Assembly (NCBI RefSeq): GCF_014202275.1
Contig: NZ_JACHGF010000015.1
Location: 1-64,000, forward strand
Length of the DNA: 64,000 nucleotides
Origin: Rhabdobacter roseus
GTDB taxonomy: Bacteria; Bacteroidota; Bacteroidia; Cytophagales; Spirosomataceae
Direction of reading: 5' to 3'
The notes under the pieces were generated by a model, which worked only from the letters and a program-made list of their open reading frames with translations, was not told the origin of the DNA and searched no databases. The number at the start of each line of letters is the position of its first letter. Position 1 is the first letter of the stretch. Positions 1,339-3,644 of the stretch are shown here, in pieces. Position numbers and translations under genes: made by a program.

Positions 1339-1476
1339 ATGCAAACACCAAGTACCTCCCAAGTACCTGCGCGCAAGCGCTACCGTCGTCCCCAGTTGAA
1401 GAAGCAAGGTACCTTGGCGCGGCTGACGTTGAAGTCGGGCTCCCAGTCCGACGCTTTTTCGCCCTACTCCCAGTAA
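1339..1476 (+). CDS. Lasso-type RiPP leader-peptide protein, copy A (45 aa)
   Basis: ATG at 1339, TAA at 1474-1476. The peptide contains Y15-x-x-P18-x-L20-x-x-x-G24-x-x-x-x-x-T30, an exact match to the lasso-precursor leader rule YxxPxLxxxGxxxxxT bound by RRE proteins. After the Thr come LKSGSQSDAFSPYSQ, a 15-residue Ser-rich tail with one Asp. It lies 18 bases after the LRR-T9SS gene and before a strong hairpin, so it is the last gene of that transcript. A second copy sits in the same position after the paralogous LRR gene (3430-3582), which argues strongly that it is a real gene. No lasso cyclase, protease or RRE gene is visible in the window. That it is a RiPP precursor is inference from the motif; the product is unknown. 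Confidence 0.72.
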   Translation: MQTPSTSQVPARKRYRRPQLKKQGTLARLTLKSGSQSDAFSPYSQ

Positions 1477-1488
1477 ATAATCAGTCCC

Positions 1489-1528
1489 AAAAGTACCTAC
1501 TACCAGCCACTGGACAGTAGGTACTTTT
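1489..1528 (+). terminator. Hairpin terminator built from GTAC motifs
   Basis: Perfect 12-base arms AAAAGTACCTAC (1489-1500) and GTAGGTACTTTT (1517-1528) with a 16-base loop; the right arm ends in four T. It lies 12 bases after copy A and 52 bases before the next gene, so it would end the LRR/peptide transcript. Confidence 0.7.
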
Positions 1529-1580
1529 AGAATGTCCGTCCACGAATAAAATAACAACCATAACTCTGTTACAACGTAGT

Positions 1581-3404
1581 ATGAAAAAACAACTACTTCT
1601 ATTAGGCCTGTTGGTGTTGACGCTGACGGCGCGCGCGCAGTGCCCTCCGGGCGATGTAACGCTTGGCTCTCAGGCCCAGGTCAATGCTTTTGGCACCACG
1701 TATTCCACCTGCACCGCTATTTCGGGAAACCTTTATATCAGTGGCGGCGACATTGTCAATTTGAATGGCTTGTTGGGCTTGACGGCCATCTCGGGAAATC
1801 TTGATGTACAAGCCAGTGGCTCCTTGACGAGCTTGACTGGGCTAAACAACCTGGCCTCCCTGGGGGGGAATTTAACAATATTTAATAACGGAGCCCTTGC
1901 CACGCTGGATGCTTTATCGAGCTTAACGACCATCTCGGGAAATAGTAGTATTTCTTTTAATGCTTCCTTGCCTAGCCTGACTGGGCTGAACAACCTAACC
2001 TCCTTGGGCGGCGGTTTATTTATATCTACTAACGGTACCTTGGCCACGCTGGATGCCTTGTCGGGCTTGACGACCATTCCCGGAAATCTTGGTATTCAAA
2101 ACAATGGCTCGTTGCCTAGCCTCAGTGGGTTGAACAACCTGACCTCCCTGGGGGGCAATTTAAGTATAAGTAGTAACAGTACCTTGGCTACTCTGGGTGC
2201 TTTGTCGGGCTTGACGTCCATTCCCGGAAATCTTACTATTCAAAACAATGGCTCGTTGCCTAGCCTCAGTGGGTTGAACAACCTGACCTCCCTGGGTGGC
2301 AATTTAAGTATAATTAGTAACGGTATCTTGCCCAATTTGGATGCCTTGTCGGGCTTGACGTCCATTCCGGGAAATATTAGTATTCAAGTCAATGGCTCCT
2401 TGACGAGCCTGAGCGGGCTGCAGAACCTGACCTCCCTAGAAGGCGAAATATACTTAAACGGAAACGAAGCTCTGACGAGCTTAGAGGCGTTGTCGGGCTT
2501 GACGACCATGGGAGGTCTTGTTATTCAAGGCAGCGGCTCCTTGACGAGCCTGAACGGGCTGCAGAACCTGACCTCCCTGGGCACCCGTTTAGCTATATCT
2601 AATAACGGAGCCCTGACCAATCTGGATGCCTTGTCGGGCTTGACGTCTATTTCGGGAGGCCTTACTATTACGGGCAATGGTTCCTTGGTTAGCCTAAGTG
2701 GTCTGGACAACCTGACTACCCTGGCGGGAAATCTACTCATCTTTAGCAATTCTCAGCTGAGTACCTGCGCCATCCTGCCCATCTGCACCTACCTCAACAA
2801 CCCGCCGGGTTCGGTCACGATTGAGGGCAATGCCACCGGCTGCGCCAGCCAGAGCGAAGTGGAGGCTGCCTGCAGCGTGCTGCCCGTCTCGCTGGTGCAC
2901 TTCACGGCCACCGCCGAAGGTACCTTGGCCCAGCTCAGCTGGACGACCGCCGAAGAAAGTAACAGCGACTACTTCCAGGTGGAGCACAGCCGAGACGGCA
3001 AAAGCTGGCGGAGCCTGGGCCAGGTAAAGGCCCAGGGCGAAAGTACCTCTTTGCAACACTACGCCTTCACCGATGCCGACCCGGCCCAGGGCGAGAACCT
3101 CTACCGCCTGCGGATCGTGGACGTGGACGGCAGCTACGCCTTCTCGCGCCTGCGGAGCCTAACGTTTGCGCGTAGCCAGGAGCTGGTGCTGTATCCCAAC
3201 CCGGTGACGGAGCGCCTGCTGCTGGACGACTGGAGCCAGGTGCAGCGGGTGCGGCTGTACGGCCCTTCGGGCAAGCTCATCCAGGAGCGCAGCCAGGGCT
3301 TGGCCTCGGGCCTGGACGTGAAGCCGCTACCGGCGGGCCTGTACCTGGTGGAGCTCACGCGCACCAACGGCAGCGTGTACACCTACCGCATTGTGAAACA
3401 ATAA
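1581..3404 (+). CDS. Secreted leucine-rich-repeat protein with T9SS C-terminal domain
   Basis: 607 residues. A signal peptide (MKKQLLLLGLLVLTLTARA-Q) is followed by a short Cys-containing cap, about fifteen 23-24 residue repeats resembling receptor-L / bacterial LRR units (e.g. LSGLTSIPGNLTIQNNGSL), a second Cys cap near residues 395-430, a fibronectin-like linker and, at about 535-607, a type A T9SS sorting domain (LYPNPVTERLLL..YRIVKQ). It should cross the outer membrane by type IX secretion and be anchored or released. Such repeats usually serve in binding; no catalytic motif is seen. The start is fixed by the signal peptide, and the gene follows a terminator. Together with the peptide gene at 3430 it repeats the gene pair at 121-1476. 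Confidence 0.88.
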   Translation: MKKQLLLLGLLVLTLTARAQCPPGDVTLGSQAQVNAFGTTYSTCTAISGNLYISGGDIVNLNGLLGLTAISGNLDVQASGSLTSLTGLNNLASLGGNLTIFNNGALATLDALSSLTTISGNSSISFNASLPSLTGLNNLTSLGGGLFISTNGTLATLDALSGLTTIPGNLGIQNNGSLPSLSGLNNLTSLGGNLSISSNSTLATLGALSGLTSIPGNLTIQNNGSLPSLSGLNNLTSLGGNLSIISNGILPNLDALSGLTSIPGNISIQVNGSLTSLSGLQNLTSLEGEIYLNGNEALTSLEALSGLTTMGGLVIQGSGSLTSLNGLQNLTSLGTRLAISNNGALTNLDALSGLTSISGGLTITGNGSLVSLSGLDNLTTLAGNLLIFSNSQLSTCAILPICTYLNNPPGSVTIEGNATGCASQSEVEAACSVLPVSLVHFTATAEGTLAQLSWTTAEESNSDYFQVEHSRDGKSWRSLGQVKAQGESTSLQHYAFTDADPAQGENLYRLRIVDVDGSYAFSRLRSLTFARSQELVLYPNPVTERLLLDDWSQVQRVRLYGPSGKLIQERSQGLASGLDVKPLPAGLYLVELTRTNGSVYTYRIVKQ

Positions 3405-3429
3405 TTTCATCTTCATACATTCTACCACC

Positions 3430-3582
3430 ATGCAAGCACCAAGTACCCCCCAAGTACCCCCGCGTCAAGTACCCCCGCGCAAGCGCTACCGCCGTCCCCA
3501 GTTGAAGAAGCAAGGTACCTTGGCGCGGCTGACGCTGAAGTCGGGCTCGCAGTCGGACGCTTTTTCGCCCTACTCCCAGTAG
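3430..3582 (+). CDS. Lasso-type RiPP leader-peptide protein, copy B (50 aa)
   Basis: ATG at 3430, TAG at 3580-3582. From Lys-Arg-Tyr onward it is identical to copy A, including YxxPxLxxxGxxxxxT and the tail LKSGSQSDAFSPYSQ. It is five residues longer because a 15-base unit (CAAGTACCCCCGCG plus one base) is repeated near the N-terminus, giving VPPRQVPPRK. The C-terminal half differs from copy A at the DNA level only at scattered, mostly synonymous positions (e.g. TTG/CTG, TCC/TCG), so the amino-acid sequence has been conserved. It lies 25 bases after the intact LRR-T9SS gene and is followed by two hairpins. A RiPP-precursor role is inferred from the leader motif only. Confidence 0.72.
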   Translation: MQAPSTPQVPPRQVPPRKRYRRPQLKKQGTLARLTLKSGSQSDAFSPYSQ

Positions 3583-3644
3583 CGGATAGAAGGACCGATC
3601 CGGAGTAGTCAATAACCCCAAAGTAGTCTCTTTACTCCGGACAA

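Follow-up and report, generated by a model that had tools for sequence, protein, structure and literature searches.

The start of contig NZ_JACHGF010000015.1 (C15) of Rhabdobacter roseus raises the question of what two small, near-identical genes encode, and why each of them lies directly behind a gene for a leucine-rich-repeat (LRR) surface protein with a type IX secretion system (T9SS) sorting tail. The window, that is, the whole stretch of DNA analysed, comprises 64,000 nucleotides (positions 1 to 64,000 of the contig), and the features that bear on the question are the following:

1-94, no strand assigned: end of a repeated, mobile-element-like sequence, which recurs with 100% identity at 10 contig ends of this genome
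121-1320, + strand: 3′ part of an LRR (Recep_L) gene with a T9SS type A sorting tail; the start codon of the open reading frame (ORF) is not the real one
1339-1476, + strand: predicted lasso-type precursor peptide 1, 45 aa, predicted core KSGSQSDAFSPYSQ, assigned from motif and homologues
1485-1532, no strand assigned: terminator-like hairpin after peptide 1, with a 20-pair stem
1581-3404, + strand: intact LRR (Recep_L) surface protein gene, 607 aa, with a signal peptide and a T9SS type A sorting tail (TIGR04183 42.5 bits, PF01030 82 bits)
3430-3582, + strand: predicted lasso-type precursor peptide 2, 50 aa, same predicted core KSGSQSDAFSPYSQ, assigned from motif and homologues
3599-3641, no strand assigned: short hairpin after peptide 2, with a 9-bp stem and no T-run, read by eye

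An earlier note on this DNA had placed small ORFs with the motif Y-x2-P-x-L-x3-G-x5-T at 1339-1476 and 3430-3582, sharing an identical tail and starting 18-25 bases after the gene upstream, and all of this was borne out: the tail is LKSGSQSDAFSPYSQ, the peptides are near-identical overall, and the ORFs start 18 and 25 bases past the upstream stop codons. The hairpin proposed after each peptide is clear behind peptide 1 (20 pairs), whereas behind peptide 2 there is a 9-bp stem, found by eye, that lacks a T-run. The type A tails of the two upstream LRR proteins score 42.5 and 43.7 bits with TIGR04183 (cut-off 23). Because positions 1-94 are the end of a repeated element, the first LRR ORF is a 5′-truncated fragment, which lacks a signal peptide, and the second LRR gene alone is whole. 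The same 94-bp end, which truncates the first LRR gene here, caps ten contig ends (on C2, C6, C7, C9, C12, C14, C15 and C19). We considered whether C15 and C18 might flank a single insertion and abandoned this, since the element end caps 10 contig ends and the flanks do not look like a simple target duplication. Between the two peptide genes, 4 synonymous and no nonsynonymous differences were counted over the final 30 codons; together with a pN well below pS relative to other copies, this pattern suggests that the pair is under purifying selection.

To define the class of the peptides, their leader and core were compared with those of lasso precursors. The NCBI lasso-leader family NF033521 (lasso_leader_L3), against which the earlier note had proposed a search, aligned its motif with the window peptides over 19 of 20 positions, and its scores of 14.3 and 14.4 bits (E ~0.03) fell under the curated cut-off of 19. 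Taken alone the leader motif is weak, this score being a lead and not an assignment, and the case is carried by homologues and genome context; Pfam gave no domain in the peptides. With the threonine taken as position -2, the leader reads Y(-17)xxP(-14)xL(-12)...T(-2) and the core starts at Lys with an Asp at position 7, a register that supports the 7-residue ring suggested earlier as possible. Gly or another small residue is usual, not strict, at position 1 of lasso cores, and the absence of Gly1 had rightly been called unusual: Lys1 is found in the window and in most relatives, Gly1 or Ala1 in others. The positions Y(-17), P(-14) and L(-12) are the published contacts of the RRE on lasso leaders (PMC10368454).

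An Asp or Glu acceptor at core positions 7-9 was present in 58 of 58 distinct cores of a first set, against 15.4 +/- 3.2 in shuffled cores, and in 99 of the 100 distinct cores of a larger set, the lone exception being probably a false match. These 100 cores fall mainly into the spacing classes K1/D7 (75 cores), K2/D8 (12, nearly all with Gly1) and K3/D9 (3), and a Lys lies six residues ahead of the acceptor in 90 of them, though the spacing from leader to Lys varies. As lasso chemistry at the alpha-amine uses an acceptor D/E at 7-9 (PMC9266682), the core rule fits such chemistry plus a separate role for the Lys.

The window itself (C15:1-64000) contains no RRE, transglutaminase-like or Asn-synthase match, which agrees with the earlier statement that it encodes no RRE, cyclase or leader peptidase. 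The word orphan, then applied to the peptides, is true of the window only. Genes for an RRE, a B2 leader peptidase and two lasso-cyclase-like proteins lie on contig C1 of this genome, along with those for related precursors; the maturation genes whose absence from the genome was to count against a lasso assignment are thus in fact there. Within about 7 kb on either side of the C1 precursor, the cluster comprises genes for the RRE, B2, an AsnB-like protein, a lipoprotein-like protein and PorU2. The RRE/PqqD protein matches PF05402 with 80 bits, above the Pfam cut-off, and the NCBI PqqD model below its curated cut-off; its closest solved relatives, TbiB1 and TfuB1 among them, are B1 proteins of lasso systems. 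B2 matches NF033537 with 63.7 bits (cut-off 33). The two AsnB-like proteins reach 231 and 386 bits with NF033535 (cut-off 525), the one in the precursor cluster scoring 231, and both are above the Pfam cut-off. Thus the RRE, B2 and cyclase of the lasso class are all available on C1, outside the window. The cluster further encodes a 228-aa lipoprotein-like protein, in which no Pfam domain was found, and a PorU2 that scores 927 bits with NF052324 (cut-off 450) and keeps the Cys/His dyad; phmmer gave no solved relative for PorU2 and none that was convincing for the lipoprotein. PADLOC gave no match for the six proteins tried, and no exporter gene was identified in the lasso clusters. Directly after the RRE and B2 genes lies a gene for a 354-aa protein (L024 2284-3348) that matched neither Pfam nor NCBIfam and has no relative among the other loci.

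Related precursors adjoin both cyclase-like genes of C1. The second of these genes (L025 5688-7859), with a distant precursor of its own 30 bases downstream (core NISTGSAAE..., acceptor Glu9), is located far from the single RRE/B2 pair. The 6.9-Mb genome contains further copies of the window peptide, on C18 after another LRR-T9SS gene and on C1 after a gene for a 342-aa T9SS protein; across the five intact close copies T-L-K-x-G-S-x-S-D-x-F-S-P-Y is invariant. C18 also carries a relic with two stop codons (L023 3039-3155, - strand), and the copy on C19 (L026 8037-8159) stands behind what reads by eye like a decayed T9SS 3′ end; both look like gene pairs in decay.

The occurrence of the peptide in other genomes was examined with a profile built from the five own-genome peptides. 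At E<=0.1 it matched 107 of 222 genomes of the same family, so that relatives, the lack of which had been named as a ground for refutation, exist in about half of them; an order-wide sample of 390 genomes gave no matches outside the family, and a genome-contig collection searched with the peptide alignment and with the cyclase gave no relatives. B2 is present in 114 of the 222 genomes, and its distribution follows that of the peptide: 99 of the 101 genomes with a peptide at E<=0.01 have B2, against 15 of the 121 without, in statistics that ignore relatedness, and the two exceptions are ~80% complete genomes. Within one genus (genomes G181-G216, taken as that genus) the figures are 26 of 27 peptide genomes against 1 of 9 others. 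In most genomes there is a single B2 for up to nine peptides, and several genera have a free-standing RRE-B2-kinase-NTP_transf_5 set with the peptides elsewhere (L206-L208); maturation in trans therefore seems common in the family.

The link to T9SS proteins recurs in these relatives. T9SS tails were recognised in our scripts by a crude pattern, profile-checked on about a dozen proteins, and genes were called as simple ORFs. A T9SS-tailed gene is the direct same-strand upstream neighbour of 45 of 70 peptides, compared with 55 of 439 (12.5%) control neighbours in the same loci (Fisher p ~2e-19, a value that ignores relatedness and the choice of loci by similarity to the window peptides). The neighbours in relatives thus bear out the suggestion of a RiPP-plus-surface-protein module, which is repeated across a family of genomes. 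The proposed coupling to LRR proteins stands for the window, where an LRR-T9SS gene precedes both peptides, and is not the general rule: LRR is one of many cargo types, and the shared feature is the sorting tail. The cargo bodies are unrelated, including LRR (window), ice-binding (L079, Runella), SdrD-like (L109) and EPTP-like (L096) proteins. For 36 of 42 coupled sorting tails the nearest tail in another genome is also coupled, as against 5 of 32 uncoupled ones. In Runella rosea (Spirosomataceae), for instance, a plasmid-borne peptide gene follows that of a T9SS-tailed ice-binding protein, with genes for cyclase, lipoprotein and PorU2 adjacent; current annotation misses such genes, which appear in this organism as hypothetical, asparagine synthase-related and C25 peptidase.

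Coupling depends on the core type, being found for 66 of 94 Lys1 peptides and 1 of 20 Gly1 peptides, several of which follow a lipoprotein gene instead. In one genus (g8; L111-L113, L115, L127, L128, L196, L197) the peptide, often of the Gly1 type, adjoins a gene for a ~240-aa lipoprotein, not a T9SS gene, and these loci often have two neighbouring PorU2-like genes. Peptide genes were also seen after an alpha-amylase with CBM26 (L078) and an endonuclease-like protein (L116), both of which end in the 3-coathanger domain (GCX_COOH, NF045639); since this cargo precedes a peptide gene too, the peptide may also be partner to another kind of sorting end.

PorU2 is tied to the lasso clusters in a similar way. 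In loci fetched for the peptide only, a PorU2 gene or fragment lies within ~8 kb in 24 of 60, nearly always with a lipoprotein gene, while fewer than one of 60 would be expected by chance (about three PorU-type matches per genome). Phylogenetic analysis of 53 PorU2 proteins placed the 35 lasso-linked and the 18 unlinked sequences on opposite sides of one branch (SH-aLRT 99), where shuffled labels need ~15 changes; the unlinked proteins were fetched as such, which makes the label clean and the sample non-random. The Cys/His pair is kept in 49 of 49 PorU2s of >=1000 aa. One B2 gene lies directly before a gene for a 1655-aa PorU2 of the otherwise unlinked clade (L187, G123:C63, 5636-11120). PorU itself, a sortase with a Cys/His pair, transfers cargo onto an amine of A-LPS, and it can also use other amines, amino acids or short peptides as acceptors (PMC10202324).

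Together, these results make it likely that the two peptides of the window are precursors of lasso type that mature in trans, their product probably acting together with the paired cargo at the surface. We do not place this statement higher as a whole because, although a lasso-type precursor matured in trans is very likely, joint action with the cargo is less so, being probable. As we picture it, the RRE (B1) would bind the leader at Y(-17)/P(-14)/L(-12), B2 would cut after T(-2)-L(-1), and the AsnB-like cyclase would link the Lys1 alpha-amine with Asp7, closing a 7-residue ring that leaves a 7-residue tail; all three proteins would be supplied in trans from C1. The predicted product, KSGSQSDAFSPYSQ less one water, would have a calculated monoisotopic mass of about 1469.64. 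The peptide and the T9SS cargo of the gene just ahead of it would be expressed together, and the mature product would act with that cargo at the cell surface by a putative route through the lasso-cluster-specific PorU2 and the small lipoprotein. Against this reading stand the miss with NF033521, the cyclase and PqqD scores below curated cut-offs, the unusual Lys1, and the Gly1-type relatives, which mostly follow a lipoprotein gene. A non-RiPP use of the leader fold, which the earlier note had kept as an option, is disfavoured because close relatives of the peptide sit in clusters with RRE, B2 and cyclase.

In a rival reading the Lys side chain, in place of the alpha-amine, might be joined to the Asp six residues on, so that an AsnB-like enzyme would form a non-lasso macrocycle; the constant spacing from Lys to acceptor with a variable leader spacing would be accounted for, yet all acceptors fall within 7-9 of the predicted first residue, cores of the family with Gly1 or Ala1 and no ring Lys exist, and the enzymes are of lasso types, so that we regard such a ring as improbable. 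It is just as hard to believe that the window copies are decaying leftovers without function: the truncated LRR copy 1, the stop codons of the C18 sister and the C19 copy behind its apparently decayed T9SS end speak for decay, but the absence of nonsynonymous changes beside four synonymous ones in the window, and the low pN relative to pS against other copies, speak for constraint.

As to why the peptide genes follow cargo genes, the peptide could be an ordinary secreted lasso peptide, a signal or an antimicrobial, whose gene came to trail T9SS genes as a hitch-hiker, by local duplication and shared transcription, with PorU2 processing only the T9SS proteins of the cluster. Pairing would then imply no joint function, as the duplication of gene pairs as units (window, C18) and the Gly1-type relatives without a direct T9SS neighbour would allow; the recurrence of the peptide behind many unrelated cargo types across genera and the single clade of linked PorU2s weigh against it and leave it rather unlikely. 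Conversely, joint action may take a stronger form in which PorU2 joins the mature lasso peptide to its paired T9SS cargo. The sorting tail would be cut and an amine of the peptide, e.g. the conserved Lys side chain, would serve as nucleophile, each peptide gene supplying its cargo with a tag or anchor. This would explain together the sorting tail shared by unrelated cargo bodies, the one peptide gene per cargo and the distinct sortase clade, and it agrees with the intact dyad of PorU2 (49/49), its own clade in lasso clusters, the Lys six before the acceptor in 90/100 cores and the acceptance by PorU of amines, amino acids or short peptides (PMC10202324). Some PorU2-bearing clusters, however, have cores without the ring Lys (L189, L201, L202), and in clusters of the Gly1 type PorU2 occurs without a T9SS gene directly coupled to the peptide. 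We hold conjugation to be unlikely. Were it true, it would amount to a RiPP-dependent protein-sorting system with a PorU2 dedicated to lasso clusters.

The preferred reading, lasso-type precursors matured in trans, has parallels among known systems. Split-B lasso systems, such as those of paeninodin (PadeB1/B2), TbiB1 and Bsf, comprise a precursor, an RRE (B1), a peptidase (B2), an AsnB-like cyclase and sometimes an HprK-type kinase. The present system resembles them in leader motif and register, in its separate RRE and B2 genes, in its AsnB-like cyclase, and in the HprK-related kinase and NTP_transf_5 of many relatives' clusters; it differs in having precursors, mostly Lys1, scattered genome-wide behind T9SS cargo genes, and a cluster with PorU2 and a lipoprotein and no identified exporter gene. 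Huascopeptin is described, in a title cited in PMC13352647, as a lasso peptide with a Gly1-Asp7 macrocycle. As far as that title goes, its 7-residue ring is closed on Asp7, as predicted here, with Gly1 in the place of the Lys1 of the window peptides. To our knowledge, huascopeptin has no T9SS link. In T9SS attachment by PorU of the PorQUZ complex (PMC10202324), the parallel lies in PorU2, a PorU-related C25 protein with conserved Cys/His, and in cargo with type A tails; the lasso-linked PorU2s differ from that PorU in forming a separate clade within RiPP clusters. Among the papers searched, none joins "lasso peptide" with "type IX secretion", and none mentions "PorU2".

The usual view of lasso peptides is of free small molecules made from compact clusters. 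In the bacterial family described here, their precursors lie dispersed behind genes for unrelated surface proteins, are tied to a distinct sortase clade and appear to share one set of maturation enzymes; the gene arrangement across the family suggests that peptide and surface protein work together. Should the two come together at the cell surface, protein sorting or surface decoration would become a function of RiPPs, and it would be possible to test directly which acceptor a PorU-type sortase uses.

A minor observation concerns short repeated words. AAGTACC, GGTACTT and GGTACC are strongly over-represented throughout the window, with 85, 70 and 118 copies against 3.2, 3.5 and 16.9 expected under a first-order model, a highly iterated motif reminiscent of HIP1.
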